From the NCBI RefSeq assembly GCF_020921035.1, contig NC_063150.1:31171826-31235825 (forward strand): a stretch of 64,000 nucleotides of DNA, in the 5' to 3' direction. The stretch is from Rhodamnia argentea (lineage: Eukaryota; Streptophyta; Magnoliopsida; Myrtales; Myrtaceae). Positions within the stretch are counted from its first letter, which is position 1. Each line of letters opens with the position of its first letter. This document shows, in pieces, positions 1,782 to 46,474 of the stretch. The notes below the pieces were generated by a model, which did no database searches, was not told the origin of the DNA, and saw only the letters and a program-made list of their open reading frames with translations. Position numbers and translations under genes: made by a program.

Positions 1782-4700
1782 ATGGGCAGCCTTCAGGTAC
1801 GTTTCCAGCCGAATGTGACAGTTTCTCGAGCTCGTTTTCCCGATTCTGATCCCGGGTCTTGCGTCTTCTTTTTTTTTTTTTAATGTGTTGTGTGCGCGCG
1901 CGTTTGTTTGTTTTGGCTGGTGGTGTTGAGATGTACAGTTCACTACGTCGGATCTCCAAACGAGCATGCGCGGAGTCCGGAGCAGCCCCACGCTGCTGTG
2001 CACGCCGTTGATGGGCACCACGGTCGACCAGATGCTGGTCGAGATGAGGAAGGCCAAGGAGATTGGGGCCGACCTCGTCGAGATCCGCCTCGACTGCCTG
2101 AGGAACTTCAATCCTCTCCAGGACCTCGAGATCCTCATCAAGCAGTCCCCTCTTCCCACTCTCGTCACCTACAGGTGATTCCTGAAAGCTCTCTCTCGAA
2201 TTTCTCGATACTCGCCATGTCCTTTTTTCGACGCTTGGCGGAGACCCTTTAGTACAGCTGCAAAACCGCACCAGCATCTTTCTTCCTTGTAGTCCTCCAA
2301 GACTAGTCCAAATTTTGTGCAGAAGGAAGCTAGAATTAGCGCCTTTGCTAGTTAGGTGGAGTGAGGGAGATAAGCAGTTGGTTAACTGCAATTTGATTGG
2401 AAAAAGAAAAACCAAATCGATGATATTGTCGGTTTTTAGACTAATTCCGCTCGAGATGGATCCGTTTTTTTTTTTTTTTTTTTTGGAAGTTTTCCTTTTT
2501 CCGGCGTTGAGTGTGGTTAATGACTTGCTTATCAGCAACCCCTGTTGCATGAGATTCTTCTTCATGTGTCTGCCACGGTGTACATTACAGGCCGGTCTGG
2601 GAAGGCGGCCAGTATGAAGGCGACGAAAGCAAGAGACAGGACGCTCTTCGGTTGGCGATGCAGCTCGGAGCTCATTACATCGATGTTGAGCTCGAGGTAA
2701 TTGCCATCCAACTACTCTCCCCTGAAATTGTCATATTGTAGATGATGTACTGTAGGAAAGTTGCTTACCTTAGCATCTACAAAGAAGTATGTAAACTGAG
2801 AATGTTGTCAATACTCCTCCTGCAGGTTGCTCATGACTTCAACAATTCCATTCATGGAAAGAAGCCCGACAACTGCAAGGTCATCGTGTCTTCGCACAAC
2901 TTTCACAACACTCCGTCAGCCGAGGCCATTGGCAATCTCGTGGCGAGAATCCAAGCTACTGGTGCTGATATAGCCACAATCGCGACGACCGCACTAGACA
3001 TTACAGATTGCGCACGGATTTTCCAGATAACCGTCCATTCTCAAGTGAGAAACACTCCCCTCCTCTGACTCCTGAATTGATTTGACGATGCTGCTCCTCT
3101 CTTAACGAGTTATTGCTGTTTCGCAGATTCCAATAATCGGAATTGTTATGGGCGAGAGGGGTTTGATTTCAAGAATTCTTAGCCCCAAATTCGGTGGATA
3201 TCTCACTTATGGTGCACTTGAGGCCGGTGCCATATCCGCTCCAGGGCAACCGACAGCTAACGACTTGTTGGACTTATACAACTTCAGGCTCATCAGGCCC
3301 GACACCAAAGTTTACGGTATCATTGGCAAGCCAGTCGGTCACAGCAAGAGTCCTCTCCTGTTCAATGCGGCATACAAGTCGGTCGGCCTCAATGCAGTCT
3401 ACTTGCATTTTCTGGTAGACGATGTCGAGAAGTTCTTCAACACCTATTCAGCCATCGACTTTGCTTCTGGATGCAGGTACTAAAACTCGACCACTTTAAT
3501 TGGGAGACTTGCAGCTCAATTGGAGGAACAAATTTGAATGTGCTTAGTTTTAACTTGTATAGACGAAGAGTATGTAACTGCTTTGTTCAAAATGCAGTTG
3601 CACAATTCCTCACAAGGAGGCCGCACTCAAGTGCATGGACGAGATCGACCCGATTGCAAAGGTACTTCGAGCTCTTCGAGATGCATTCTCAAAATTAATC
3701 CATGACAAGTCGCATTACGAATTCCTTCTGTTGATTTTCCTCAGAAAATTGGGGCTATCAACAACATTGTGAGAAGGCCTGATGGGACATTGACTGCTTT
3801 CAATACCGATTACATCGGTGCCATTGCTGCTATCGAGGACGGATTGAGAGGTTTGTAATCTATTCTACAGGAAAATGCAATTGTTTAATCAATTTTAAAA
3901 TGGCGCATTGACATTGTGTTTCTGTGTTAATACAGAGTTAAATGGGGTGAGTCCAGGAGCCTCGCCATTAGCCGGTAAACTGTTCGTCGTCCTCGGAGCT
4001 GGTGGTGCTGGCAAGTCGCTCGCTTATGGAGCTGCTCAGAAGGGAGCTCGAGTAGTGGTGGCCAACCGGACATTCGGTAATAGACCTTCTCTCTTCTTTC
4101 ACTGTCCAAAACACAGCGAACTTGAGATTATGGGCGTCGTAGCGACTTGCAGGAGCTTGTCGGTTCCTTTAGGAGTTGACGATCCTAGGAGAAATTTTGG
4201 AGCTTCCTTCTAGATAGAAAGCTAGCGAAACATCGTTGCACTGCCTATCAATTGTGATGATAACTATTCATCGTTTTCATTGTCAGCTAAAATTGTACAG
4301 ATCATCGAACTAATGACCATCTAAATTTACATGTCATTCAACATCTGTCTCTATAAAGCAACGAAATACCGGTTCCTAAGCAACGACATTGCACATTCTT
4401 TGTTCTGCAGAGCGGGCCAAAGAGCTTGCCGAGAAGGTGGGAGGACAAGCTACGACTCTTGCTGAGGTCGAGAACTTCCACCCCGAAGAAGGCATGGTTC
4501 TTGCAAACACGACATCCGTCGGCATGAAACCTAAGATTGATGACACCCCCCTGGCCAAGGTTCGCTTTTCGCTTCCTCTCTCTCTCTCTGTATGTATATA
4601 CATTTGCGAGGATTGACTTTTGCAAGGCAAATCGAATCTACTTCTCCAAAGAAAGCTCGAAAAGTCCTAGGCGATCTCCTGCAAATACAAACACTTGAAA

Positions 4701-5131
4701 CGGTACATGAATTAACAGGACTAATCAGACTACGAAATGTAACAAAATTTACTCGGGTGGAAATAATAGTAAGTGCGTGAAGTGGCTTTCTGGACATTGA
4801 TGCATTGCGATTATCTTTTCCTCTGCAGCACGCTTTGAAACGTTATTGCCTGGTGTTCGATGCCATTTACACACCGAAGGAAACCAGACTCCTACGCGAA
4901 GCGAGAGAGACCGGAGCTGTTATTGTGTATGGAACGGAGATGTTGATCCGTCAAGGCTTCGAGCAATATAAGAATTTCACTGGCTTGCCTGGTAAGACAA
5001 TCCAAGCCAGGCTCTTACACCTCAGCTTATTGCCATCTATTCACAATCCTAAACTCTAAGCAACTCATTTTCACTGTCCTATTCCAGCACCGGAGGAATT
5101 GTTTAGGACGCTCATGGAGAAACACGCGTAG
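1782..5131 (+). CDS. Dehydroquinate dehydratase/shikimate dehydrogenase, copy 1 (dehydratase lysine lost)
   Basis: Eleven exons: 1782-1796, 1939-2174, 2591-2696, 2826-3044, 3127-3476, 3598-3661, 3745-3850, 3936-4076, 4411-4559, 4829-4991, 5088-5131. All introns are GT-AG and the frame stays open for 530 aa. The N-terminal half is type I 3-dehydroquinate dehydratase (LVEIRLD, SSHN, GERGLISR, APGQP). The C-terminal half is shikimate dehydrogenase (GHSKSP near residue 263, TIPHKE, GAINN, NTDY, nucleotide loop GAGGAG near 386). In the family these catalyse steps 3 and 4 of the shikimate pathway, usually in plastids, but no clear transit peptide is visible here. The Schiff-base lysine (Lys241 in Arabidopsis, context VKIATTA) is Thr170 (ACA at 2976-2978, context ATIATTA). 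The shikimate-site residues are kept. I infer a dehydrogenase without dehydratase activity, perhaps acting in gallate or quinate metabolism. Confidence 0.95.
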
Positions 5132-5883
5132 AAGGGCGGCATCCATCCGAGGAATTTCTGATATTCAGCTGAACCGAACGTCCCCGACAGGGAAAAATAT
5201 CACTCTATGTCAAGGCCTTGACTTCGAATTTTGTCATATTCCGATAAACTGTATTGTGTACTGTGTACGAATTCATCATGAGCCAATGAAGGTGTTACCA
5301 ATAATTTCTGCGAAAATTTCTTCCCAGCTCGCGCCTTTGTTTCCTTAAGCCAACTTGATCCATGCCGACAAACGATCGTTCCATCAGATCACTGGAAAAT
5401 CCATCAAAAATCTTCTTAGAGCACATCATTTTGTCCGGCTTCCATTACCTAACCATAAACTGCTGCACACCATCGATTAATCATATCCTTAGTAACAACA
5501 TTGTGAAGAACAGAAGCGTAACGACTCCACAAGCGGCCTCGACGGATGTCATTTTCGCATCGAAGCCGAACTCCCTGTAAAGAAAGTTACTTCTCAGTCA
5601 CAGCTAAAACTGCCGGCGATCGTCCTATTCTTCATCGAACTCTTCATACACACTGAAGACATCTCTCCTGTCGACATGGAGGTTTTGCTTGGATTGCACT
5701 GATATGGGCAAACCCTAATGCGCATAAGTTGCAGTCCGACCACCATAACATGTTTCCAGCCGGACAGTTTCAAAATCACGTTGGTGGGGTCTTCACTAAA
5801 TAATAATTTGAAAAAAAAAAAAACGTTCCATTAGTAGCAATCATAGATTGCAAAGAACGAGTGAAAATGAACGCAGAGAGAGA
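5132..5883. other. 3' flank of DQD/SDH copy 1
   Basis: This contains the 3' UTR of copy 1 and then unique sequence without a recognisable gene. Short frames on both strands have no family resemblance and no splice context that would join them. Confidence 0.5.
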
Positions 5884-5956
5884 TGGAGATGCGGGGTATC
5901 GAACCCCGTACCTCTCGCATGCAAAGCGAGCGCTCTACCGTTTGAGCTACATCCCC
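5884..5956 (-). tRNA. tRNA-Ala (UGC)
   Basis: The reverse strand folds into a complete 73-nt cloverleaf. The acceptor stem GGGGATG pairs with CATCTCC, followed by discriminator A. The D-arm reads TAGCTCAAACGGTAGAGC. The anticodon arm is CTCGC-TTTGCAT-GCGAG, with anticodon TGC (alanine). The T-arm is ACGGGGTTCGATACCCCG. A-box and B-box promoter sequences are internal and intact, there is no intron, and CCA is not encoded, as usual for nuclear genes. It is solitary, lying between the two DQD/SDH copies. Confidence 0.95.
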
Positions 5957-7880
5957 AGGTTGCAGAACCCTTCTTCTTCTTAGAATCACATAATCTTTTT
6001 CTGCTTTGCAGAGCGAATCCAACCGCGTTGACTGAATCCAACCGCGTTGACTGAAACAACACGCGCATTGGAACAACAAGCATAAGAATCTTGGAAATCT
6101 GGTTGCGCCCGCCGTTCAGCAGCTTCCTCTCTCGGGGCAGTCGGATAACCCAACGACGGAGCAGTTCCACAACCGGCTTTCTTGACGGAGAAAGTTCTGG
6201 TCTGGAACGTTCGGCTCATCAAGAAGACGACAGAAAAGGTGTAGCTTTTGGACACATTAGGGTTCGCATGGGACACCAATGGATGTCCCATGGAGTCCCA
6301 AACATTAGATGCAGACCGCTCCTCGGAGAATCACCCTGCCTCGTTCCCCGTGGGCCACGTCGCCGGAAGGAGGAATATTCAGCCGATGATTACTCACCGG
6401 GGAGCTTCGCCCTATGAATAACATCGGCAAGCCCCTGTTTCGGCGGTGATGCAAGAAAGGACACTTTTCTGGCAATGATTTGATTTAATGAGACCACAGC
6501 CGACCGTTCTTAAAGCTTAAATTGTGTCGCCACCTTCGTGGAGAGCTTTAGATCGGTGCCTCTAATCACTTTTCGTTGTTACACATAGAGGTAATAGGAT
6601 CAATCACGAAGAGCATTTCATGTAATAGCAGAAAAATAGGGGCTAACCGCTCACGATACCTTTCTACTACTTTAGTGTGTACAACCACCCCTCCACTTCT
6701 TTGAGTTATTCCTCTATACTTTCTTTGCGTTTCGTGTCAATGGTGTTTTGGGGGATCTAGGATCTCATGTAAGGGAAATCTTTGGTGTGCAATATGTCTG
6801 CGTTGTGAAAGTTGTACTGTAAAAAGATTTATTGTTGAGAGCGTGACTCACTGTTTGATGTTTGTCTAGTTGAGCGGTGTGCGTTGTAATTTTCCTGATT
6901 ATCAAAGAGAGTTCCGTGTGATTGCCTCGTGTCGAACCACATAAATTTGTCTCTCCATCTTTATTTTGTTGCACTTGTTTTGTTTATCGTTTTATCCAAC
7001 GCAAGAATCGATTACGTGTGAAGAATTATCGCAACATTTCAAGTAACTAAATGCTGTAAGCATTCGCGTTTTCCGATCTTTCGGCAATTTCTCTCTCCCG
7101 CCGAGGCCGACCGGAGGACGAGAACCCGAGGCTCGCCGACTCGACGAGCATGGTCTGCTGAAGTGATTTGCAGCACCCCAGGATTACTAACGCATGACAC
7201 ACATGTCCATGATCATGAATGGGTTAGGAAAAGATTTGGTGAGGAATTGAAACTCAGGAACCTCCTAAACTTAAAGCACAAGAGAACCAAACCAGGGCTT
7301 TACGGTACACCTGTTGGTCAAGGTGGTCCAGTTTCTAACAGAGGAAAAGACATTCTTGCATGATTGGGGACGACGAACAGCAACCAAATTCTCCCGTTCT
7401 TTATTGTCCCACGCAATAAAGAATGGGAGAATTTGGGCCAGTAATGGAAGGGTTTCTCTAGTTTTTCAAATGAAAGACATTGAGCTAAGTGGCATGAATT
7501 CACAAAGGTGTTACAATTATTTTTTTTTTATTTTGAATTTTTATTATGCCTGACGGTTATTAGGCGCTCGAACAACTTCTAGAAGATTGTGTCTATTATG
7601 ACTGTTGAAAAGTTGTGCCTATTCGGACATAACTTCTTAATCTTGAAAGATTATGTTTGTTCAAACATTTTCGTTGCAAATTACTGGATGTTTCTACTCA
7701 ATTAATAACTTCCACATATTTTCGTTTCTTTCAAAAGAGAGATACAAGCCTTCTTTCCAATTGTTTCCCTTTTGAGAGTTCTTGGAGAAATATCGGAATT
7801 TAGACTTCTTTCCACATATTTTATTTTCGTTTCGGAGACTTCGTTGTATCCTAAAGGATTTTTGCTAGTAACCAGTGGTC
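5957..7880. other. Intergenic, no gene recognised
   Basis: There is a short tandem duplication of ACTGAATCCAACCGCGTTG near 6013-6051 and a strong hairpin at 7384-7436. The stretch 6450-7010 has the texture of an old long-terminal-repeat fragment but no diagnostic part. No reading frame has a recognisable product. Confidence 0.5.
7384..7436. repeat. Near-perfect 23-bp hairpin
   Basis: Left arm 7384-7406 and right arm 7414-7436 are reverse complements over 23 bases with one G/T mismatch and a 7-base loop (TCCCACG). No larger transposon structure was seen around it. Confidence 0.8.
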
Positions 7881-8325
7881 TATGTAACACCAACACGACA
7901 CGACACGTAATACGTGACATGTCGACATGTGATTTCTCAAAAGATAGGAAATTACGAGACGTTGCATATTAAATAGATATTTTTACGTATACGTGATAAA
8001 TTGTCATGTGTGTATAAAAATATCAGCGATGAGTTTCTTTTTTTTTGTCCATTAGTGGTTCATGATTATTTTTTTTTTTCTTAACCGGTTGGGTATATTA
8101 ATTTTGGGGTGGCTGGGTATATGAATTAGGTACATATATTTCTAATAAATTTACATTTTAACCCATAATTTATTGAAAATACTTAAAATTAACCTCTTGC
8201 GTGTTGAAATAATATGTCGAGGTATTGGACTCGCATGTTTGGAGTGCTGATCACGCAATGTCGGAAAGTATCGGAAAGCGACAGGACACGATACGGAGGC
8301 CGCCCCCGGGGAGAGTGTTGGCAGT
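7880..8325 (-). repeat. Unclassified interspersed repeat, copy A
   Basis: This segment aligns with the reverse complement of 28230-28690 along most of its length. Shared stretches include TATATTAATTTTGG with flanking GGGTATAT, the TGATAAATT.TCATGT block, ATTTCTC.AAA.ATAG, and a terminal block ACACGG/ATACGGAGG followed by GGAGAGTGT. No coding sequence is present, and terminal repeats or a target duplication could not be fixed. Family is unknown. Confidence 0.65.
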
Positions 8326-9900
8326 TGGCACTACATACCATTTGCAACATCGTGGAGGCAAATCTTTTCCTAAAAAAAGTGAATTCACAACTCGAGATCT
8401 AATTTCATTTCTCCTCATTCGATCACTAAATTTTCTCAACCCAACCCCCCACCCACCAACCTCAAAAGAGAGAGAGAGAGAGAGTGTGTGTTTGGTGAAG
8501 AGGTTGCTGGCACCTACCACAGACAGGAGAAGGAAGGAAGGAAGGAAGAGGGAGGGACTTTACCTAAATAATCTAGGAGACGGGGACAGGATCTAACGAC
8601 AGTTTTTGAGGTTCCGAGTGCTCGGCGGTCTTTCTTTCCCACGTTACGACCTAACCCCCGCAGCCGCGAATGAATTGCCGATCTCATCCAATCTCAAAAG
8701 AAAGTATAGGTACCCAAAAAAAAAAATATATTGCGTAAATCACTAAAGAAATCGCCAATTTGAGATCCTCCAAAGTTAGTTGTTCCAATTAAATCAAAGT
8801 ATACGCACCTCCTCAGAATCAATCCTTCGCGTAATCCACAATTATTAGGTGCTCTCAAAGTACAACTTCGAACGTAATTAACGCGTTTTTAAGTCGCGCT
8901 ACACACTCAAAATTACCTGGTTACGTCTCTCTCTCTCTCGAGAGAGAGAGATTTCCTGTTAGATTGTCCGAACGAAAATTAGTGATATTGCCGAAATCCG
9001 CTGTCGAAAATGATAAGCGTCGTGTGAACCGATCTGGTTGCTCCGATGTTATGTATACCACGAGGAACATGAAACCGCGACTAGTTTGAGACGTGGGGAA
9101 CGCAGTGTTTTTCCACTTGCCTTGGCGGCTTATAGAGTTCTAGTGATGACAAGACTTGCGGATTTCCCCGGTCCGACTGACGTCGCATCCTCTTGGCCTA
9201 TCCTCCCACCTAACCATTGGGGCCGCGGGCTGGTCTTTCGAGAGAGAGTCCCTCTTGGAATAGGTCCGCCCCACCCGCCCCCGTCGGCACGAAGGGCAAT
9301 CGCTCGTGAATAAGACCTTATTCAATTAGGCTACCACCTGCATAGTGCCTCGTGACCGATAAAAGCAGAGATCGCCTCGACCTCGGCTCCAGGAGAAAGC
9401 ATTTTATACGGCGGCCACAAATTCATAAGCGGAAAATGAAAAGTCAATCGTTTCCGTAGCGGAGGGGACGTCGCCTTGCGATGTTTAAGGACAGGAATCT
9501 TCGATCGGATCACTCCGAGGATCCGGACTTTGATCGGCCACCCGCGACGAGATACTTCTTTCTCGATCGGAATTTGTTTAGGGCAACCTCGGTAATCAAA
9601 GGAGGGGGAACGATGGAAAGAGAAATCGAATTGATGCGAGTTTTAATTTTCTCCACTCACTCCACTCACCACCTAAATTTTCTGATGTAACCGAAGAGCG
9701 GACACGCGGTCAACGCAACTGCGCCCTCTTGGCCGATGACCCAACTCGCCACGTATTTTGGGGAATTTTACCATATTTTTTGGGTTAAAAAAAACACAAG
9801 AGCGAATTTTCGAACGGTCATCTAACGTTCTTCTTCTTCCCCTTCTTCTCCTTCTCCTTCTGCTTCTTCATCGGCAAGCGAGCGAAGCATGCGCCAACTG
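8326..9900. other. Upstream intergenic region of DQD/SDH copy 2
   Basis: No gene is supported. It contains GA/CT microsatellites (near 8470 and 8930-8952, the latter a CT/GA palindrome) and GC-rich stretches with short meaningless frames. The promoter of copy 2 should lie in its last part. Confidence 0.5.
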
Positions 9901-9918
9901 CTCTTGCTTTTCCTCTGC

Positions 9919-9930
9919 TATTTATATATG
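9919..9930 (+). promoter_or_regulatory. TATA box of DQD/SDH copy 2
   Basis: CTATTTATATATG lies about 130 bases before the ATG and is followed by a CT-rich leader (9955-10010), a pattern common in plant core promoters with a pyrimidine patch. Confidence 0.55.
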
Positions 9931-10053
9931 CACACACCTAACCCGCCACGGAGTCTCTCTCTCTCTCTCTATAGCTGAATATCATCACTCTCTCTCTCTC
10001 TCCCACACCTCTTCGCTCGCTCGTTCCTCTCGATCGCCGCCGCCGTCGCCGCC

Positions 10054-13000
10054 ATGACTCTCAGCAGCATCCCGGTAACATCTCTCTCTCTCTTCCGGTT
10101 CTTCAGCCTTTTGTTTTTCGCAACGAGCCACCCGATTCGGTGTTTCGCGTCCCCTTTGTCATCTCAAATTGTGCTTGCTTCAGTCCGTTCTCGAGTCGAT
10201 AGCTGTGCCGTCGTTGTCTTATCTGGGATCGATGTTGTTGTTGAATGAAAAATCGTGTGATGATCGGGTGAATCGTAGTAGCCCCGTGGAATGGAGTTGT
10301 TCCTGCGGGAAGCAGAACGCATCGGGTCGATTCTCTGTGGGACTAATCTGAATGCGGAGATGGTGTCGGGCGCTCTTGAGTTGCTGCAGCTCTAACTTGG
10401 GATTGCCTCGTGTTGATTGAATTTGCTGTTTATTGAAAATTTGTGCTAGTTGACTACTGCGGATGTTCAAATTGCCGCTGGAGGAAGGAGGAACTTCACG
10501 CTACTGTGTGCGCCGGTAATGGGGGAGTCGGTGGACCAGATGCTGGGCCAGATAAGGAAAGCGAAGGAGCAAGGCGCCGACCTTGTCGAAGTTCGCTTGG
10601 ATTTCTTGAAGAGCTTCAGTCCGAAACAAGATCTCGAGGTCCTACTCAAACAGAGCGCCTTGCCCACTCTAGTGACTTACAGGTGATTGATTAAATATGT
10701 ATGATTGCGGTGTGTTTTTTTTTTTTTCTTTTTTTTTTTGTAGTATATGATGTGATTGGTGGATTTTGCTGCTTGGCGCTTCAGTAGACAGAGACGTACT
10801 TCAATATATTGTATGCAGAATAGCCAAGAAGTCACAATATTAGAAGATCTTTTCAGCGAGGGATGCACTTTTTAGTGAAAGTCACTGATTTAATGTGCAT
10901 TTCTGCCTATACTGTTATTTTACTGCATGCTGTTGAGTTCGAGTCGCATATCTTCCTTCGTTTGAGATTTTCTCATGACATGAATCTTCGGCTCTTCCAC
11001 TGGCAGACCCAAATGGGAAGGTGGTCAGTATGAGGGTGATGACAGCCGGAGATTGGATGCATTACGAGTAGCAGTGGAATCAGGAGCTGACTATGTAGAT
11101 GTTGAGCTTCAGGTCGAATTTTATCTCTATCCTACATGTTTGTTTCGGTATTTGCAGTCATGTGCCTAATACTACAATCCAGCGGATCGAGCCCTAATAT
11201 GGTACTCTAGTCCTCACATGGTACTCTAGATCAAATGAAGCAAGAAGTGCTAATCTAATGATATACTTTCATCTGCAGCAAATGAGAACCAGAGTTAGCA
11301 TCAGAATTATAATGAGATCATTCCCTTGTCAGTTTATGTTTCCATAAGCTTGGTTTTTAAAATGCAGAAAATGCTACAATTGTCTTTTAAATCCATTTTA
11401 GATATAAGATTAGACTTGATGAGTAAAGTGCATAGGAAAAGAGCTTCTGCCAGTAGCTGTTGTTAGCCGGTCACAGAATGACAGTCAACTATTTGAACTG
11501 AAGAGTAGTAATGGATTTGCTTCTGAAGCCTGAAGCTTCTTATGATGCGTTATTATCTAGTGCAATACCAATTGCATCTGTCACCTAATTTACGCCTGTA
11601 GATGTTCTTCAGCTTTTATTTTCCGTCTAGTGCTGACTATCAACAATTTGCTCTTTTCCAAGTCTTCGGTTTTGTGGAAGTGTCATATATAGGCCACTGA
11701 GAGTCTTGCTTATCTGATTGAAGGTTGCTCATGAGTTCTTCAGTTCCATTCATGGGAAGAAGCCTGAAAAGGTCAAAATCATAGTTTCTTCTCACAACTA
11801 TCAGAATACACCATCATCCGAGGAACTGGGCAACCTTGTAGCAAGAATCCAGGCTACTGGCGCTGACATCGTCAAGATTGCAACTACTGCCCTTGATATT
11901 AGTGACTGTGCGCATATCTTTCAAGTTCTAGCACATTCTCAAGTGAGTACTTTGTTGCACCAAAAGAAAACGTTGTGGTAGGCCGTTTGAAATTTTGGGC
12001 TTATATGCTTCGTAGCTGTTTTTACACGATCAAGTTAAATACTTAAATAGTAGCTTCCTCAAGCTTTGACAATGGGGCAGCACATGTCATTGGAAATGAA
12101 TATCAACTTGGTTTTTCAGGCAGAAAAAGAATTCTAATATCTGGTAGACATTTCCAAGTTCCAACCGAGTCCTGCCCTGGGAAATAGGAAGACATCATTC
12201 TCTATGCTGGGTTCATCAGCATTCACTTTTTATAGGCCGTTTACCTCTCTACAAGTTTCAATAGGATAGATATGCCCTTGCAGGTTCCAACTATCGCAAT
12301 TGCTATGGGCGAGAGGGGTTTGATTTCACGGATACTTGCTGCAAAGTACGGTGGATTTCTCACATTCGGTGCAATTGAAGCTGGAGTAGTTTCAGCTCCT
12401 GGACAGCCATCCATAAAAGATCTGCTGGATTTATATAATTTAAGACAATTAGGGCCTGATACCAAAGTACATGGTGTTATTGGAAAGCCCATTGGTCACA
12501 GCAAGAGTCCTCACCTGTACAATGCCGCATTTAAATCGGTCAATTTCAATGGAATCTATCTCCCCCTGTTGGTTGACAGTGTGGCAAATTTCATCAACGC
12601 CTACTCATCTCCAGATTTTGTTGGATACAGGTAAAATATCCTTCTCCAAGTAGTGTGGATTTGCTTAGTTTTCTTTCTGTCGATTCTAAAGGTCCTTCGT
12701 TGGGTTCACCTCAGCAGAGTGACTGATGAATGGCCTTTATTTAATTCCTCCTATTCACTAAATGAAAATCCAAATTTTCAACTTGAAATGTAGTTATACG
12801 ATTCCTCACAAGGAGGATGGACTTAGATGTTGTGATGAGGTCGACCCAATAGCCAAGGTATAAGCATTGTTCCTTACTCGCCAGTTTCTTCTGTTGATGG
12901 AATGTTGTCTAAATACGTAGGGGTTTTTGCTGATAGAGTTACTGTCTAGGCTTCTGACAAGCTTCTGCATCATTGTGTGGTTATACCTGTTTTGATGTCT

Positions 13001-14057
13001 GGATGGTAACTACTACAGGCCATTGGAGCTATCAGTCAGATGATTAGAAGACCAACCGATGGGAAGTTGATCGGATACAATGTTGACTATCTTGGAGCTA
13101 TTGCAGCTATTGAGGAAGCACTTCGAGGTTTTAAATGCACTTAGTAATTTGCTGTTTGTTACTCTGAACCTTGAACCCCTCCGAGAATCTTACATGGTTT
13201 CTCTCTCATGCAGCTTCAAACGGAGCAAGCCCGGCTACCATTTCCCCCTTGGCTGGAAAGCTCTTTGTTGTCATTGGAGCTGGTGGTGCTGGAAAAGCAC
13301 TTGCATATGGTGGTATGGAGAAGGGAGCAAGAGTTGTAGTTGCCAACAGGACTTACGGTAAGATTTTCTTCCTTTAGGCATCTTTTGTTTCGATATAGTT
13401 TCCATGAGGACAAACTTAATATGATATTACTCCTCACTTGTAGAAAAAGCAAAAGAACTCGCCAGTAAAGTTGGAGGGCAAGCAATTACTCTGGCTGAAC
13501 TTGAGAATTTTCACCCAGAAGATGGAATGGTTCTTGCAAACACCACTTCAGTTGGGATGAAGCCAAACATCGACCTGACACCCTTATCTAAGGTCTGGTA
13601 TCTTGATACGCATTCCTCCACAGGACTCATTCATGATATTGCAAATTTAATGGGATCCTTGCATAACGCTTAGTCCTGGAACTATTGACCTTGTCGAATG
13701 ACAAGCTAACATAACGTGGGTTTTCTCTTGGCAGAAAGCTTTGAGTCGCTATCGTCTGGTTTTTGATGCCATCTACACGCCAAAGTTGACTCGACTTCTC
13801 CAAGAAGCTCAGGAGTGTGGAGCCATTCCTGTCTATGGAACGGAGATGTTCATTAATCAGGCCTTTGTACAGTTTGAAAGGTTCACGGGGTATCCCGGTA
13901 AGATGACTCCTAAAGCCTCCATAAATTTTAAATTTCTGCTTGTCAAGCCGACGTGGTATTTGTAGCCCGAATTATATACCTTTCTAAACATGAACTTCTC
14001 CTTTTCCCTGCAGCACCAAAGCAACTGATTAGGGATGCATTGGCAAAGAGTACATGA
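10054..14057 (+). CDS. Dehydroquinate dehydratase/shikimate dehydrogenase, copy 2 (altered shikimate pocket)
   Basis: Eleven exons: 10054-10074, 10450-10682, 11007-11112, 11724-11942, 12284-12630, 12794-12857, 13019-13127, 13214-13357, 13444-13592, 13735-13897, 14014-14057. They total 532 aa, with intron positions and phases equal to copy 1, so this is a tandem duplicate. The dehydratase half is complete, including the Schiff-base lysine (AAG at 11874-11876, context VKIATTA), SSHN, GERG and APGQP. The dehydrogenase half keeps GHSKSP, TIPHKE and the GAGGAG nucleotide loop. However, the conserved Asn of GAVN is Ser336 (13034-13036) and the Thr of NTD is Val352 (13082-13084). These correspond to Arabidopsis Asn406 and Thr422, both in the shikimate site. 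I infer normal dehydratase activity with a changed second-step substrate or product. The start codon is in a GCC-rich Kozak-like context. Confidence 0.95.
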
Positions 14058-17040: not shown

Positions 17041-19700
17041 AACCTTCCCTATCCTACAGGCACGAGAAGAGAGAGACCTGCTTCACCGGCGAAAGTATGA
17101 ATCGCTCCTCGACTCCGAGATCCCCGATTCTATAACCTGGTAATGTCATAGGTCTCGTCCTTTTCATTGCCTCTCTCTGTCTCTCTCTCTGTCTCCGATG
17201 ATTCTTCTTTTCGTGCGAATCAGATCGGTGGGAGCTGGCGATCCTGTGACGGAGCTGTCCGAGTCCGTCTAGGGTAATTCGGCTTGTTCGGCCATGGTCT
17301 CCTGTTATCGCCTCTTTGATTGGTGTGGAAGTGTTTTTGAGTCTCAGTGGCTTTTTGAGTGTCGATGGTACCCAATTAGGTAGGCAAGGTGCCATCTTGC
17401 ATCGTCAGGGTTTAGGTCTCAGTTTCTTTTGGAGTGATTGTTTCTTCGTATCCTCCGACGCATAGGTTATTTTGCGGGTGGTTTTTTTTTTTTTTTTTTT
17501 TAAGTGTAAGAGAGGTGGTTTCTGCGTAAGGGTTGATGCTTCTTTCATTGATCTTGAATGGGTTTCTCGTTGATTGTGGTTTTTTTTATTCCACCATATT
17601 TAGCTGTTGAGCAAATTTTCACAAAAGGCTTAATTTTTAACTCTCTCTCTCTCTCGCTTTTTTTATCTCAACTTACATATGTGGGTTTTTGCTGAACTAC
17701 GCCTGGAAAAGCTTAGAAGTGATGCTATTTTTATCTGATGTAGCTGGACATGGTGCTCTCAATACAGATATTATTTCATCTATATCTTCAGTTGCTTCGG
17801 GTAGGACCAGGTAGTCTTTTTAGGTTAGAGTACATTACCTTGTTTTAAGTTCCTAGAGAAAAATGATCGAGGGGAAAAGAAACAGGATAATGTAATGTAA
17901 ACAAATGACTGATCACCCATTTTAACCAATCTTATCTGTTTTCCGTATCTGATGCAGCAGTGCAAAGTTCCTTGTCTTTGCGACAGGTTGTGGCTAGTCA
18001 GAGTCTTTTGTCATGCTCTTACATAGTTTTTGGGTACTGGCCTTGGTGGTCAAAACTTATTGCTTGAATCACAAATTAGGAGAATCTTTTTAGCATCGTG
18101 AATAGCAGATATTGACATGTAACATTTATTAAGCAGCTTCAAAGCAAACATGGGTGACTTATCAATTAGTGAGGACATTTTGGGTGTGTAATGATTACAC
18201 TGTGTAATTGCGAAGGTGGCTATCACAAGGAACATGGGTATTCTGTATTAGCAACTTATATTACCTCACAAATGACATAAGATTCCCAAAAATGATTCTT
18301 ATTATGCTAGAAGTGTACTTTTGCGAAATTTGGCAATACTCATTTGTATCTCTTTTTAGTATAATAGACAAGGTTGAGGGTCCGACAGTTTTATGACTTG
18401 GATCTTTTACAATGTTATTGTAAATATTTGAGGTCGTTATTTCATTCTTTTAAGCTCTTATTGAGAGGATATGAAGAAGGAGATGTCCGAGAATTCCTTC
18501 AATAACATCTATGGTATAAAATCACGTTATTCACAACTCCATAAGTGCATTCTTGGCATCAACCAAGTTATTTTGGCCACTTTGATTACTGAATATCCTG
18601 GGAAATTACCCAATGTAATTCTCAGTCTCCCGAAAACATTAGACATTTAACAACCAGTCTATCCTAAAATTACTCGAGACCTTTTACTGGACTAAGTGAA
18701 TCGTAAATCATGTCTGAATCGTGAATTTTATGGAATTATAAACAAGTGCTGCCTGGAATTTTAACCTTGATTCTTTCCTTGAAGTTGAATCTTTTTGTCT
18801 ATAAACTGAGTCGAACCATATGATGTGAATCTTGAACCATCTGTCCTAGTGACATTGATTATTGTGCCTATATGATCAATGTGATGTAGGTCGAGTGTGG
18901 TAGATTTGAGGTTGGAAATAAAAAGGTTGGGTAGATGGGAAAAGAAAATAACAAGCAATAGAAATCAGATAGGTTGAACTGGAATTGGAAAAGAAGTACC
19001 ACAAATGCATTCAGAATCGTGTGTCGTGATTAATGACAAGAAGGTGAAGTTTGACACTAATAAGGCTTTTGTACCATTTCATGAGTACAAACTGGCTAGA
19101 TAGGAAATATTAGTTAGTATTTGTTATCTTACATTACAAAAGCTATGCTAATCCCGAGTTCCTACATTCTGCATTGTTTGGAAGTTTGCGTGATAATATA
19201 AGGACCTTGTGTTTGAAGTAATGTTTCTGTCTGACAGCATGTTCTTGCTGGTTTAAGTTTTTCGGCATATGAACGTTTTAGTAAATTCTTGGGTGTCTTT
19301 TAAAATAATTTTAAGACCATTTCATTTTCTTTGGATTGGAATGGTTTATGTTTTTATCGTGATCTTGAGATTGCTTTGGTTAAGAGTTATCTTTTCTTAA
19401 AGGTTTTATGGTACTACTATTATAGAGACGTCTTCAGTTGAAGAAATCGTTTTAGTGGAAATTTGTTACAACTTACATGTGGAAGATTAGTAATGCGATT
19501 ATCCTGTTTAGCTATAAAGTGAGAAGACATGTGCATGCATATGTTTGGAATGCTGTGGAAGCAGTTGTATTAATTACCATTTCCCTAAGGAGCTTCTGAT
19601 GTTTTGTTGATGGGTGCAGTTGAATTTTGGTAGGTGGTTGTTGCTTTGGGACTAAAGTTGGCTTGGAACACTGGGAGGAACTGTGTAGCAAGATAGAAAA
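17041..19700 (+). other. 5' leader and long leader intron of the DCD gene
   Basis: A CT-rich leader-like stretch at 17041-17383 is followed by a possible donor (AG/GTAGGC at 17384) and more than 2 kb of T-rich intron-like sequence. An acceptor (GGGTGCAG) ends at 19619, about 80 bases before the ATG. The arrangement is inferred from splice signals only. No coding sequence is seen. Confidence 0.45.
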
Positions 19701-22544
19701 ATGGAAGCTGAAGCACCTCCACATGTGTCCACTGAATTACACACATTGGACCAGGAAACCAAGGAGGCAGTTGAAACACCTACAGATTTCTCCACTAAGT
19801 TGCGGCCTGAGGAAGACGAAAACAAGGAAGCGAAAATAATTGTGGACACAACTCATCCACTCTCAAAGGAGCAGAAAAGAAAGGAAGAAAATGAAGCATC
19901 TGCAGATGCCTCTGAGCCACACTCAATAGAGCTGGGAGGCAAGAGCAAAGGTGCGGAGACTTCCAATGAGTTGCAGGCTCCTAAAAGGAAAACTAGGAAG
20001 GTTTTGAAACCCAGATCAAAAATTGCCAAGAAATCTCCTGCCAGTAATTCCTTGGACAAGAAAAAGGCCGAAGAAATCTCCACTAAGTTGCAGCCTGAGG
20101 AAGACGAAAACAAGGAAGCTGGAATAATTATGGACACAACTCAGCCACTCTCAAAGGAGCAGGAACGAAAGGAGGAAAATGAAGCACCTGCAGATGCCTT
20201 TGAGCCACACTCAATAGAGCTGGAAGGCAGGAGCAAAGGTGCGGAGACTTCCAATGAGTTGCAGGCTCCTAAAAAGAAAACTAGGAAGGTTTTGAAACCC
20301 AGATCAGAAATTTCCAAGACATCTCCTGCCATTAATTCCTTGAATAAGAAAACGGCGAAAGTTACTGTTGCAGAACTCGAGGGGAAAGAAGAAATAAAGA
20401 AGAAAGCAGTATCACTGATTAATAATGGAAATAGTAGCATAGAAGTAGGGACCACAGATGCCTTATGTATGGAGCAGGAAAACAAGGAGGAAATTAAATC
20501 GGCTGCAGATTTCTCTGCTGAGCCACATTCTATGGAGCTGGAAAATAAGAACAAAGTAGCAGGAACCTCCAATGAGTTGCCGGCTCAGCAGAAAAATGAG
20601 GTGGAAATTCAAGCAGCTCCAGAGGTCTCCACTGAGCCACACTCTGTGGAGCTGAAAAAGAAGAGTGAATCTGCGCTGACCTCCGAAAAGATGCAGGCCC
20701 CTAGGAAGAGAACTGTTAAAGTTTTGAAAGCCAGATCAAAAATTGTCAAGAAATCTCCTGCCATTGCTTCATCGATGAAGAAAAAAGTCGAAGCTACCAT
20801 ACCAAAAGTTGAGGTGGAAAAAGCAACAAAGGCGAAAGATGTGTTGTCAGTTAAGAATGGAAATAGCAGCAAAGGAGACTCCTTGAAGCAATCTACTTCT
20901 GGTGATAAGATGCTACGGAATGCAGATGATTTGAGGAGTGAAGGAAAGGATGATTGCAACTTGAAAGGTGGAAATAGCTGCACTCATGTAGAGAAGAATG
21001 CAAAGGAACCAGCTGCAGATAATAGTGAGAAAAATGGATCTGGAGTGCTTGGAAAAAGCAAAAGGAAATGGAAGGAAACAGTAAAACAAAAGTCTAACAA
21101 GAGTTTGAACAATTTGAAGGACAATGAGAAACCTGACAATTTGGAAAAGAAACCGAGAAAAGAAAAGAAAGAAAAACTCGGTGGTTTGATTTTTATGTGC
21201 AACTCCAAGACCAAACCAGATTGTTTAAGTTATGGTGTCATGGGCATCTCCTTGAGTAAAAAGGATCTTGTGTTGGGCGTCAGACCTGGTCTCAAGCTTT
21301 TTCTGTATGATTATGATCTTAAGCTTATGTACGGAATTTACAAGGCCACCTCTCCTGGGGGCATGAGACTCGAGCCTAGCGCTTTTAATGGGGCTTTTCC
21401 AGTTCAGGTCAGTTCTTTATTACCTGGGTTTTCTTACTAGTTGATGGTTTTGTTTGCAAAGGCTGATCAGTTTTAAAATTCTAGGTGCGATTTAAAGTTC
21501 ATCTCGAGTGTTATCCGCTGCCAGAGACTATCTTCAAAAAGGGCATGGGAGAAAATTTTACAACTAAACACAAATTCAAAACAGAACTTTCTATTGAACA
21601 GGTGAGGAATACATGCTACTTGTATGCGCGGTTTCTGCAGTATTTTTCCTGAAAAACAACACTTGAATTTCTTCCAGGTAAGTAGGCTTGCAGCACTTTT
21701 TCGACCAGTAGAGCTCCATGTGAAAGAATTGCCTGCTCGTTCCCCAAGATTGACCAAAAGCAGAATGGGGGATTCTCATGTCAGAGCTCGTGAATCACGA
21801 CATCTATCACGTAGGGAAACATCGTCTAGGGATCCTTATGCTGAACATCAATCTCGAAGACTTCCGGAATTAGCTCATGAAAGTGACCGACCAGTTGTGG
21901 GCCGTGAGCTAGCGCCTAGGCCAAGAGCAGAATCTCGAGAAATGTATCTTACGGAGCAGGAGTATCGAGCATTTGGTCTTAGAGGAGAGAGGAGGAACGC
22001 AGATTTCCGAAGGCATATTTCTCCTACCCTAAGACCATACAGGGAGGATCACGAGAGAGAGCGCATTCGAAGACTACCGGAAGAGATACATAGGGAAGCT
22101 GCTCCGGCGCGGAGGGATAATGCTGTTGGACGTAGCTATACGAGTGACAGGGGATATAGAACTTATTCCCTTCATCCAAGGGAGGAATTGCACAGCCAAG
22201 TTCCTCCTAGGGCAGGTACATCCGCTGCTGCTGCTTTTAACTCCTACCAGGAGGATCCTTATGATGCATATCAGCATGGTGCTGCATCTGCGGACCCATA
22301 TGCACATCGTTCAAGAAGGGAGGACATACCCTCAGGTTCTCTTTATGGTCGTAGTAGGCGGGAAAGTTATTTGACTGAGAAGGACCATCTACGAAGGAGA
22401 GCAGTTGATCGGGATGAATCACTTCCGAGGTATATTGATGATTTACTGGGACATGATCGAGCACACCGTTACGGGACTAATGAGAACAATGCTGCTAGCT
22501 TGCCGGTTTCATCTCGATACTCTTTTGCAGGTCCGAGGATCTGA
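19701..22544 (+). CDS. DCD (Development and Cell Death) domain protein with N-terminal repeats
   Basis: Three coding exons, 19701-21407, 21485-21601 and 21678-22544, total 896 aa. An in-frame stop just upstream at 19686-19688 fixes the start. Residues 1-490 are Lys/Glu-rich and low complexity, with an almost exact 96-codon tandem repeat (see 19791-20366) plus a weaker third unit. The DCD domain (about 493-622) starts [12 protein letters not shown] and continues with [23 protein letters not shown] and PAQV/PVQVRFK-type strands, then IFKKGM and the LAALFRPV end. In this plant-specific family the domain is linked to stress and cell-death signalling, and the biochemical role is not settled. The C-terminal 270 residues are Arg/Tyr/Ser-rich and probably disordered. 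The last exons match the usual intron positions of the domain. Confidence 0.93.
19791..20366 (+). repeat. 288-bp in-frame tandem duplication in the DCD gene
   Basis: Two copies start at 19791 and 20079 (TCCACTAAGTTGC.GCCTGAGG) and run 96 codons each with few differences. Each unit begins [13 protein letters not shown] and ends around SPA.NSL. A diverged third unit follows ([25 protein letters not shown]). The unit length is divisible by three, so the frame is kept. Confidence 0.9.
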
Positions 22545-41368: not shown

Positions 41369-44300
41369 ATGGTATCAACTGGAATTCTCCGGATAATGGT
41401 GTTGATCGGATGTATCGGATTTATGATGAACATCTTGGATGCTAGGTCTCGCCAGATTCTTGTCGATACTGATCTCGACATCGATGACATTTTAGCTCTC
41501 TTTTATTTGTTGAAACAGAACAGGAGTGAATTTGACTTACAGGTCATTTCTTTTCCTTTGAAATTTGAGCAGCTCTCCTGAATTCAACCAGAGTAGAAAC
41601 TTGCATATAGGCCTAAATGATGCTAACCAATCGTTGCAGGCAATTACTATTAATGCAAATGGATGGAGTGATGCTGGGCATGCAGTCAATCATTTATATG
41701 ATATCCTTTTCATGATGAATCGCGACGATATTCCAGTGGGGGTGGGTGGTGAAGGTGGTATTTCGCTAAATGGGGTTATTATGCCAGAAGTTGGCGGTTA
41801 TCTTCCTATTATTGACCAGGTGTTATTATAAAGCTCATTTCAGTTCTTAGTTTCTATTTTCTTTTTATTAATCAAAGCATTCTTTCACAGGGAATGTCAA
41901 CAGAGGGAGGGTGCCGGTATAGACAAGCGATCCCGCTGGGTCTAAGGGGACGGTTGGATATTAACACAAATTACGGCATAAGAAAGGGGTTCCTTCCTAA
42001 GGTAGCCAAAGTTAATGAGGTCAATCATATCACACATCCTCATGTACTGTCATTAATGCACGTTGTCTGTGTTTACTATGATCTAATGCTTGATGTATGT
42101 CTCTTACAACTTCAATTTTTCCAGCTAGATTGTGCTGGATAGAAATGTGCGTTGTTACCTCAACTGCCGCATTTGCCATAATGCATTTAGTTAGTTGCTA
42201 GAATTTGTTTTCTGCTCATTATTAGTAGACAGAAAAGGTTTCGCAATGTGACTAAAATCTAAGCCATATATATTTAGACTTATACTAAAAGGAATAGCTG
42301 TTGCCTTCATCTTCTATTCTCGAGTGTGGAGGTTGGTTTGCAACTGCGACGTGTCATTTTTCCTCTGAATTAAGTACTTTATTCTAGATCTAGCTCTAGC
42401 AACTTGACATTAACAGGGCCACAGGACATATATTCCTCTCAAGCAAGCTAGTGCGCAGCAAGTGATGAAAGATGCGATATCTTCAGGTCCTATCACGGTA
42501 TTTCTGATGGGAACACATACCAATTTTGCGCTTTTTCTCATGACCAATCCTCATCTGAAGAGAAATGTCGAGCACATATATGCCATGGGTGGTGCTATTA
42601 GGTCCACTTGCCCGAAAGTCAGTGACCCTTCTCAACAAGCTGCCTGTGCTAACATTGGCAACTTGTTTCCTCGAGATAGTAATCCGTATGCGGAGTTCAA
42701 CTTTTTTGGAGATCCTTTTGCTGCATATGAGGTAACCTTGTAATCTGGATGCTCTCTTTGTTTGTGAGTGATGAGAAATTTTATCAGGATAAAAAGATGT
42801 AAGCATTCAAGGTCTTGTCTATCCTAAGGGTGTTTTGCAGTCCAGGTACTTCATTCGGGAATTCCAGTCACGCTCGTTCCTCTCGACGCAACGAGAACCA
42901 TTCCTGTTGATAAGAACTTCTTCCAGGCATTCGAAAGGAGTCAAGATACATATGAGGCACATTATTGTTTCCAATCGTTGAAAATGGTTCGCGATACTTG
43001 GTTCAGTGACCGTTTTCATGAGGTACGTCCTGACACATTTCTATTTTCCAGAACTATTGAGAATAGTGCTGTAGCTGCCTAGACAAGATTGGTGATTCAC
43101 GAAATGATCACTTCCCAGAACTATTACATGTGGGACTCATTCATGGTTGGAGTGGCCATATCTAATATGCGAAATCAGCAAAACTTGGAAGAAGAAAATG
43201 CATTTGCTGAGATGGAGTACATAAACATCACGGTTGTTACTTCGAACAAGCCTTATGGAGTTTCAGATGGCTCCAATCCCTTCTTTGATGGGCTTACTGT
43301 CCCAAAGTTCAGACTAAGGAACAATGGAGTGCATAGTGGTCATGTTCAGATGGGAATGCAAGATCCATTTTGCGAAGCAGAGAATAAAGGGACATGTCAG
43401 GTAGTCACTTTTACCTATACCATTATAATTATTATAATTACAGGACTCTGTGGTCATAGTATATGCGCCACGGGCATTAATAGTTTCATTTTTTCCATTA
43501 AGTTAGTTTTAGGCAATAAGTTACGTTTACTTTACCATTTGAATTAGATGACTTTGTGGTAATAATAACCGTGCCCAGCGCATCAATGTTTCTACTTTGC
43601 GATAAGCCAGCATTTTATTCACAAAACTCAGGTGAGCAAGGCCTGCTACGTTCTCAACAAAGTGCTTACAAACCCTATTCATAAAGGCCATCTTCCACTT
43701 CCAGGGCATCAATATTTCACGAGTAATATCATGTACTACTGCATTTAATGGATGACTAGGCAATCGCTATGTTCATTTACTACACATAGTGAAGTGCAAG
43801 ATAATGTGTTTACAGGTATGCTGATATTGTTGATTAAGCTTTATTGTAGGATGGTTACACAGAGGAGGCAACTGGTCCAGAAGCAGTGCGTGTTCTTGTC
43901 GCGACGAAAGCTAAGCCAAGCCAAGACACCAAAAGCTCACTGAACAAAGAGTTCTACGAAAGCTTCTTGAATGTAAACTATCATGAGATCTTTTGTCCAG
44001 AGCACAATATGTTATGTTTTCACTATTTGAAATGAAGATGGTTCTCTTTCTTTTATATGTCTGTGAAGATGAATTTTGACTGGCTGACGACACCAAATAG
44101 AATAATGCCATGCGGATAGATAGCTGCATAGTCCATTGTTTAAGCTGATGTTGTTTATGTTGGCACAATGAACAAGATTTCTGGTGCTGTTTCAGGTTTT
44201 AAACAATCCCGAACAAAGTGGAAGGTTCAACATCACGACACAGTTCCCTCACTACAGGGAAATTATGCTTAAGCCAGACAGTGATATGAGGTCCACCGGA

Positions 44301-46474
44301 AAACCTGTTGTCTTCGACATGGATATGAGTGCCGGAGATTTTCTATCTCTTTTGTACCTTTTGAAAGTGCCGAGGGAACTTATCAACCTTAAGGTAGGAA
44401 TTGAGACCGTGCACCACTCATTGACAAATTAGACTTGGGAAACAATTGACAATTGTTGGAGCCCTTTTACACTTTATGATCTGTAGCTCATATTCTCCCC
44501 TAACCATTTCTAAGCACTGCTGCTAATGTGCTTATGGACAAATAGGGCATAATAGCGGGTTCAACTGGCTGGGCTACCGCTGCAACAGTTGACATTGTTT
44601 ATGATGTTTTGCACATGATGGGTCGGGATGATATTCCGGTTGGTCTTGGAGATGCATTTGCACATGAACAGACAGATCCAACTTTTCCTGCTATAGGGGA
44701 CTGCAAGTACAGAAAGGCAATTCCTCATGGTGGCGGCGGCTTCTTAGATGCCGACACGCTCTACGGATTGTCTCATGATTTGCCTAATAGTCCTAGAAGG
44801 TTTTGCACCTCTCATTGTTATTTCTCTCTTTTGCAAAAGTTGATTATTCTTCTGTCCTGTTATGCATATTGTCTGCCTCAGTAAAAAACATCAGAAAGTT
44901 TAATGGTTGCATGTATGATAGGCTGTCTTGCTTTATATACGTTGGACACTTTCTTGCTTAGCATTTTTTGTAAATTCGTTTCTCTAACTAAGGGGAGGAA
45001 AAATAACTAATGCATTTGAGTTTTTCAGAATATTCTGATCTCGGCTCTTAACTTCTGTGTCAGATACACGGCAGAAAATTCGATGAGGTTTGGAGCTCCT
45101 CGAAATACTGATCACCCTGAATTTAGACAGCCTCTTGCAGTTGATGTCTGGAAATCTGTTGTCAAATCACTAGACCCAGCCGCCAAAATTACCATATTGA
45201 GCAATGGACCCTTAACAAACTTGGCCTCAATCATTCATTTGAAAAACTCAAGCTCGGTGATCCAGGTAAATTCAATGACAAGGATAAACTTGTCGTCACC
45301 TGTTTAAGATAAATGATCCGTTAAGACCAGTGATCGCGCTTGAATTTCAGATTTCCTTATTAGTTTTCAAACATGAGAAACTGAGAACTTCTTTTATAGG
45401 TCATTTTGCACATGTTTGATATCACATCATGAATATCGTTACAATTCTATTTTATCTGCTTCCCTGAAGAAAAATGCCTATATGATAAAATTTTCCACTA
45501 TCTCTATTGTATTTTGCAGGATATATATGTTGTTGGGGGACATGTTGGCGATGGCAATGAAAGAGGAAATCTCTTTACTGTACCTTGTAACAAATTTGCA
45601 GAATTCAACATGTTTCTTGATCCTCTAGCTGCAAAGGCCGTTTTCGCCTCGGGGCTTAACATAACACTCATTCCACTCGGTATGCAAAGGAGGGTCAGTT
45701 CCTTCCCAATGATATTAAACAAATTACAAGTTGCGAACAGGACTCCTGAAGCTTCATTGGCCCATCATTTGCTTGCGACTCTGTGGAAGTTGCAGCAGAA
45801 ACATAACATATATCATCATATGGTAAGAGAGCTTGATCGTCTCTTCATGAATTGGCTGAAGGTCGCGTACATGTGAATATTTACTCTCTGAGTAATACCA
45901 CAGTTAAAGCAATTTACTTTGTCAAGGATGAGTGATCATAGAGTAGTAGTCTGCATTAATTCAAGTAGTTAGGGAAGAAACTCTGAGGAAATATGGCAAT
46001 GGTTGCACAATTTTTTCTGCTTTGAGAATTGACACATCAGAAAAATCTACTTTATAATACATCACTATGCAGGATTTATTCTTGGGGGAAACTCTGGGAG
46101 CAGTGACATTAGCCAGCAACATTTCTCACTTAAATAGGACTTTCGAGTTCAAGCCTCTCAACATCTTGGCCGATGGAGACGAATCAAAAATCGGAGAAAT
46201 TATCATCGACGAAAAGCGAGGAAAACCAGTGAAGATTTTGAGAAGCATTGACGAGGAGGCCTACTATGAGCATTTTGCGGAAGTACTGGGTAATGAAAGA
46301 CAGTCCGCTGTACCGGGGAGCTATGGTGAGCCACAAAGAGCAGATACTGAATCCCAGGCAGGAGTGTCAACAGTCATGAGGGAAGTCAGTAATCTCTTGC
46401 CCTTAGAATTAGGATTGATTCTGTTTTCTCTTTGTTTACACATGATGGTCTGCATAAGAATTAGACAACAGTAG
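41369..46474 (+). CDS. Secreted double-domain nucleoside hydrolase (NSH3-like)
   Basis: Twelve exons: 41369-41542, 41640-41819, 41891-42001, 42417-42731, 42846-43022, 43119-43400, 43850-43972, 44196-44393, 44546-44799, 45064-45265, 45520-45822, 46073-46474. They encode 906 aa. A signal peptide ([20 protein letters not shown]) precedes two inosine-uridine nucleoside hydrolase domains. Domain 1 has the calcium/ribose motif DTDLDIDD (33-40). In domain 2 the equivalent is DMDMSAGD (495-502), so its metal site is degenerate, although GPLTNLA and [12 protein letters not shown] are kept. This matches Arabidopsis NSH3 (At5g18860), an apoplastic inosine/adenosine hydrolase for extracellular nucleosides. 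Oddity: after the expected end (SAVPGSYGE) the protein continues about 50 residues to a hydrophobic stretch ([16 protein letters not shown]) encoded inside a tandem duplication, so this tail may be recent. Confidence 0.93.

Follow-up and report, generated by a model that had tools for sequence, protein, structure and literature searches.

A 64,000-nucleotide window of the Rhodamnia argentea genome (contig NC_063150.1, positions 31,171,826 to 31,235,825, forward strand) contains two neighbouring genes, here called copy 1 and copy 2, for bifunctional dehydroquinate dehydratase/shikimate dehydrogenase (DQD/SDH). Our analysis suggests that they are very probably a Eucalyptus-type (Myrtaceae) tandem of gallate-forming DQD/SDH genes, copy 1 belonging to group III/B and copy 2 to group IV/C of the family. 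The coordinates of the genes, of their diagnostic codons, and of other features of the window are collected in Table 1. Both gene models are predicted from splice rules and protein homology; each comprises 11 exons and is intact, GT/AG borders are found at 10/10 introns in copy 1 and 10/10 in copy 2, and the ten exon junctions fall in the same alignment columns and the same phases. The original prediction had described two full-length copies with identical intron positions, which agrees with these models. The proteins are 69% identical (363/528 aligned residues). GC content at third codon positions contrasts strongly within the tandem (0.615 in copy 1 vs 0.423 in copy 2).

Table 1. Features of the R. 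argentea window (positions counted from the first nucleotide of the 64,000; At, Arabidopsis residue numbering)
Feature	Positions	Strand	Description	Basis
Copy 1 DQD/SDH gene	1782..5131	+	11 exons, 530 aa	splice sites, open frame, protein homology
Copy 1 exons	1782-1796, 1939-2174, 2591-2696, 2826-3044, 3127-3476, 3598-3661, 3745-3850, 3936-4076, 4411-4559, 4829-4991, 5088-5131	+		
Copy 1 Thr170	2976-2978	+	codon ACA at At K241 (dehydratase Schiff-base lysine)	alignment to Arabidopsis
Copy 1 Asn336-Asn337	3760-3765	+	At N406, T407; carries group III signature T407N	
Copy 2 DQD/SDH gene	10054..14057	+	11 exons, 532 aa	splice sites, open frame, protein homology
Copy 2 exons	10054-10074, 10450-10682, 11007-11112, 11724-11942, 12284-12630, 12794-12857, 13019-13127, 13214-13357, 13444-13592, 13735-13897, 14014-14057	+		
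Copy 2 Lys171	11874-11876	+	codon AAG, kept Schiff-base lysine (At K241)	alignment to Arabidopsis
Copy 2 Ser336-Gln337	13034-13039	+	At N406S, T407Q; gallate-type pocket change	
Copy 2 Val352	13082-13084	+	codon GTT (At T422V); gallate-type pocket change	
Spacer between copies	5132..10053		4.9 kb	tblastn, ARAGORN
tRNA-Ala (UGC) gene	5882-5957	-	in spacer; sole tRNA gene found in window	ARAGORN
Open frame	19689-21437	+	583 codons, Development and Cell Death domain	PF10539
Tandem repeat in open frame	19789-20356		period 288 bases, 2.0 copies, 92% match	
Two exon-like stretches	42414-42740, 45433-45873	+	inosine-uridine nucleoside hydrolase	PF01156
Exon-like stretches	59696-60449	-	protein kinase	PF07714/PF00069

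In each copy a single polypeptide carries a type I dehydroquinase domain and, after it, shikimate dehydrogenase domains (Pfam; in copy 1, DHquinase_I at 221 bits and Shikimate_dh_N at 82.3 bits), which is the architecture of the bifunctional plant enzymes. AtDQD/SDH of Arabidopsis (PDB 2GPT, 2O7Q, 2O7S) shares this two-domain architecture, with 64-67% identity to the copies per domain; 2GPT matches residues 21-529 of copy 1 (E 9.1e-226) and residues 21-528 of copy 2. Against the NCBIfam aroE model copy 1 scores 204.1 bits, above the cut-off of 200.2, and copy 2 scores 181.7, below it; against the aroD model (cut-off 139.3) the scores are 199.6 and 211.9 bits, respectively.

Residues are numbered here as in AtDQD/SDH (2GPT/6BMB chains), anchored on Thr381; with this anchor N406, T407, T422, D423, the NRT motif at 483-485, Y550, Q578, and Q582 all land at their published places. 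At K241, the Schiff-base lysine of the dehydratase, copy 1 has threonine and copy 2 keeps lysine; the adjacent residue is changed too, the VK of Arabidopsis and copy 2 reading AT in copy 1. The K241 codon lies inside exon 4 (residues 120-192 of copy 1), so an altered splice site would be unlikely to bring the lysine back. Eight other dehydratase sites are retained in both copies: H214, R279, and E124, R126, R155, E159, S300, and Q304, the last six of which we take to be dehydratase sites on the basis of bacterial active-site motifs. In copy 2 all nine sites are intact, including K171, H144, and R209 (the lysine, the catalytic histidine, and the binding arginine). H214, K241, and R279 are named as dehydratase residues in a paper on tea (PMC6797610). 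The Schiff-base lysine is the mechanistic hallmark of type I dehydratases (PMC4114755); this mark of an active domain is present in copy 2 and absent from copy 1.

The dehydrogenase half was compared with Arabidopsis at 15 sites. Copy 1 differs only at T407N, and copy 2 has C380Y, N406S, T407Q, and T422V; Ser338, Thr381, and the NRT motif are retained in both. AtDQD/SDH is a classical enzyme with K241, N406, T407, and T422, unlike the copies. The residue claims of the original prediction hold for the lysine (missing from copy 1, present in copy 2) and for the two altered pocket residues of copy 2 (N406S and T422V), to which T407Q and C380Y can be added; its statement that the shikimate pocket is preserved in copy 1 needs a small correction, since N406 and T422 are retained and T407 is changed.

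Bontpart et al. divided the DQD/SDH family into five groups, with Asn407 as a mark of group III and Ser406 plus Val422 as a mark of group IV (PMC4892741). Copy 1, with N406, T407N, and T422 alongside S338, T381, and NRT, carries the group III/B signature; copy 2, with N406S and T422V, carries that of group IV/C. The cysteine usual at 407 in group IV (T407C) is replaced by glutamine in copy 2. Eucalyptus grandis EgSDH2 is the named exception to this usage (PMC4892741), and EcDQD/SDH2 of E. camaldulensis has Gln337, so Gln407 marks the Eucalyptus branch of group IV.

The E. camaldulensis enzymes provide further points of comparison. Tahara et al. (PMC7752791) print Ser336, Gln337, Val352, and Gln510 for EcDQD/SDH2, and Asn337 and Gln508 for EcDQD/SDH3; the four former numbers coincide with copy 2 (4/4) and the two latter with copy 1 (2/2), which also supports the predicted start codons of both copies. 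Copy 1 thus resembles EcDQD/SDH3 (LC487990) and EgSDH3 (Eucgr.H04427) in Asn337, Gln508, NRT, and N406/N407/T422, and copy 2 resembles EcDQD/SDH2 (LC487989) and EgSDH2 (Eucgr.H04428) in Ser336, Gln337, Val352, and Gln510. We infer that copy 1 is the orthologous counterpart of EcDQD/SDH3 and copy 2 that of EcDQD/SDH2.

The positions that distinguish the copies are otherwise strongly conserved. A scan of prokaryote genomes with two peptide patterns, which did not cover K241, H214, R279, N406, T407, or T422, yielded 110 stretches, 65 of them coding for relatives. K241, H214, and R279 are unchanged in 65/65 of these and N406 and T407 in the 55/55 that are covered (10/65 are not covered at these sites); at T422 there are 52 with Thr, one with Ser, one with Leu, one with a gap, and 10 not covered. 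Because K241, N406, and T407 are invariant among the prokaryotic relatives covered, the substitutions sit at highly constrained sites and are not due to chance. Identity in the best segment ranges over 29-43% for all 65 loci; those relatives with a match across both halves include many Planctomycetota and two Woesearchaeota records. Among 60 pattern matches in viral contigs there were no relatives.

In a 35-row tree, in which an Arabidopsis PDB chain is the sole plant DQD/SDH from outside the window, the two R. argentea proteins group together to the exclusion of Arabidopsis (support 97/95), and a branch supported at 100/100 separates these three plant sequences from all other rows. The plant proteins are placed among Planctomycetota rows, where some branches are weak. 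Unique changes in the dehydratase domain number 22 in copy 1 vs 23 in copy 2 (Tajima chi-square 0.02), and in the shikimate dehydrogenase domain 25 vs 21; nonsynonymous distance (dN) between the copies is 0.188 for the dehydratase domain and 0.193 for the dehydrogenase domain, and the synonymous distance is saturated (proportion of synonymous differences, pS, 0.71). Decay of the copy 1 dehydratase domain was considered and rejected, as neither unique changes nor dN shows an excess. The lack of acceleration implies that the lysine was lost recently, that the domain is kept for a role other than turnover, or that activity persists.

The activities of the two copies may be read from those measured for the E. 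camaldulensis enzymes (PMC7752791), given here as kcat/Km (per mM per s) for EcDQD/SDH1, 2, and 3 in that order, with 3-dehydroshikimate or shikimate varied in the kinetics of shikimate formation and oxidation. The dehydratase values are 135, 96.2, and 4.16, those for shikimate formation 805, 5.32, and 65.6, and those for shikimate oxidation 23,200, 71.3, and 22.2; gallate formation reaches 0.304 in EcDQD/SDH2 and 0.0700 in EcDQD/SDH3. EcDQD/SDH2 and EcDQD/SDH3 each retain dehydratase and shikimate dehydrogenase activity, and both make gallate. The structural models of Tahara et al. explain gallate formation by a re-placed 3-dehydroshikimate, the effect being strongest in EcDQD/SDH2, and these authors propose that the dehydratase reaction and shikimate oxidation supply 3-dehydroshikimate for gallate formation. 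Both Eucalyptus genes are co-expressed with UGT84A25/26, and a plastid location is predicted for the Eucalyptus enzymes (PMC7752791). Joint expression in Nicotiana benthamiana led to gallic acid (PMC11921145 and PMC10587339, whose accessible passages do not separate the genes).

By analogy, both R. argentea copies, which have the NRT motif, would produce gallate, from which hydrolysable tannin synthesis starts, by NADP+-dependent oxidation of 3-dehydroshikimate. In copy 2, Ser406, Gln407, and Val422 would re-place 3-dehydroshikimate such that the C5 proton is taken, and the intact dehydratase domain would still provide this substrate. In copy 1, Asn407 may permit shikimate and gallate formation alike; the loss of the Schiff-base lysine would be expected to abolish dehydration or lower it strongly, and 3-dehydroshikimate would then be drawn from copy 2, from a classical enzyme, or from shikimate oxidation. 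Copy 2 is thus predicted to be the better gallate former, with its own substrate supply, and copy 1 to lean to shikimate formation. The possible service to hydrolysable tannin synthesis raised in the original prediction fits the group III/IV signatures, which place the pair in the gallate branch; genes at this entry point in tannin-rich trees bear on aluminium tolerance and plant defence.

Several points weigh against a gallate-forming tandem of Eucalyptus type. The orthology is judged from residue numbers and signatures rather than from aligned Eucalyptus sequences. Tahara et al. (PMC7752791) assign the substitutions at N406, T407, and T422 to EcDQD/SDH2 and EcDQD/SDH3 together, a sentence that fits copy 1 only if it is meant collectively, because copy 1 is changed at T407 only; for EcDQD/SDH3 only Asn337 is then discussed. 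In the same paper the gene models of E. camaldulensis enzymes 1-4 bear different draft contig numbers and therefore do not demonstrate a tandem there. The dehydratase kcat of EcDQD/SDH3 (3.67 per s; PMC7752791) is hard to reconcile with K241T if the substitution is shared, and the tea paper reports that its groups three and four both conserve Lys-241 (PMC6797610). Finally, in tea the counterparts localized to the cytoplasm and the nucleus (PMC11891478), as opposed to the plastids predicted for Eucalyptus.

It is a tentative proposal, with chances slightly under even, that group III proteins normally have the lysine and a weak dehydratase and that copy 1 lost the residue recently, in this species or allele; as this bears only on the age of K241T, it is compatible with a gallate-forming pair. 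The dehydratase activity of EcDQD/SDH3, about 5% of that of the classical EcDQD/SDH1 (PMC7752791), is what such a proposal would predict for the group, the conservation of Lys-241 stated in the tea paper, whose accessible text does not name the aligned sequences, favours a lineage-specific loss in copy 1, and the unaccelerated dehydratase domain points the same way. Against a recent loss, two neighbouring residues have changed together (VK to AT), and copy 1 is the one group III sequence in the comparison. In the literature searched, which takes in neither Fig. 8 of PMC7752791 nor any supplements, no group III protein of gallate type is reported to have lost the lysine. The measurable dehydratase activity of EcDQD/SDH3 stands in contrast to the threonine of copy 1: if EcDQD/SDH3 has lysine, copy 1 has lost it, and if EcDQD/SDH3 shares the threonine, its turnover would arise without a Schiff-base lysine. 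An unlikely reading is that a lysine-free type I dehydratase domain, under normal constraint within a working gallate enzyme, either dehydrates without the lysine, if EcDQD/SDH3 shares the threonine, or serves as a non-catalytic partner in substrate binding or channelling for its dehydrogenase half. What could matter in the pair is the missing lysine, which would point either to a recent loss of half a bifunctional enzyme or to a challenge to the need for lysine in type I dehydratases.

A strict division, in which copy 1 would act solely as a dehydrogenase and copy 2 solely as a dehydratase, the two together replacing one bifunctional enzyme, is improbable. In its favour, the copies carry complementary substitutions at positions that do not vary among the covered prokaryotic relatives, the aroE and aroD family-model scores tilt in the same direction, and dividing the dehydratase efficiency by that for shikimate formation (our own calculation from the values in PMC7752791) gives about 18 and 0.06 for EcDQD/SDH2 and EcDQD/SDH3, respectively. 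However, both E. camaldulensis enzymes retain all three activities, gallate formation included, EcDQD/SDH2 outperforms EcDQD/SDH3 in shikimate oxidation, and EcDQD/SDH1 exists as a separate classical enzyme (PMC7752791). The division of labour advanced in the original prediction survives in part: a skew between the copies is echoed in the dehydratase and shikimate-formation kinetics of the counterparts, but no split of half-reactions is, both counterparts being trifunctional, and for shikimate oxidation the counterpart of copy 2 is the better enzyme, contrary to the proposal. The complementary pattern thus has partial support, as a bias within enzymes that each keep three activities, with shikimate oxidation departing from it.

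A role of one or both copies in quinate metabolism can practically be dismissed: quinate dehydrogenases did arise in the same family, likewise losing dehydratase residues, but neither copy has the S338G and T381G of the quinate dehydrogenases of groups II and V, both retain Ser338, Thr381, and NRT (Thr381Gly confers quinate dehydrogenase activity and Ser338Gly enhances it), and EcDQD/SDH2 and 3 neither form nor oxidize quinate, EcDQD/SDH4a alone being active according to the accessible sections of PMC7752791. Of the two directions of divergence originally named for such paralogues, quinate and gallate, the pair is placed in the second, and the first is unlikely.

Comparable arrangements are known from other plants. 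In E. grandis the group III gene EgSDH3 (H04427) and the group IV gene EgSDH2 (H04428) have adjoining locus tags (PMC4892741), which implies a tandem there too. In grape, VvSDH2, 3, and 4 are clustered within 34 kb, and a mapped region with three such genes is described (PMC8976690); VvSDH3 and VvSDH4 on chromosome 14 resemble the R. argentea pair in that a group III and a group IV gene linked to gallate formation lie in one cluster, although the grape cluster also carries VvSDH2 (group II) and the window, with 1.8 kb upstream of copy 1, shows no third copy. Tandem DQD/SDH genes are likewise reported in pomegranate (PMC5999313). In tea both types fall in one quantitative trait locus interval (PMC11891478), which we do not count as evidence of adjacency because it contains four SDH genes over approximately 3.65 Mb. 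The accessible parts of papers on the Syzygium cumini genome (PMC10693344) and on bergenin (PMC10794647) contain nothing on these residues or on a tandem. Since tandem group III/IV genes and their function have already been published, the pair does not represent a new case of division of labour, and with genes and activities of this kind already known it adds little in itself.

The two copies are separated by a 4.9-kb spacer with a tRNA gene, and tblastn with both proteins (E up to 1) detected no third DQD/SDH copy or remnant in the 64-kb window, which shows only 1.8 kb upstream of copy 1. Downstream of the pair are a 583-codon open frame that encodes a Development and Cell Death domain and whose internal tandem repeat has a period that is a multiple of three, and two exon-like stretches matching inosine-uridine nucleoside hydrolase, which possibly belong to one gene with two hydrolase domains or to two adjoining genes. 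Exon-like stretches of a protein kinase are found on the opposite strand near the end of the window.

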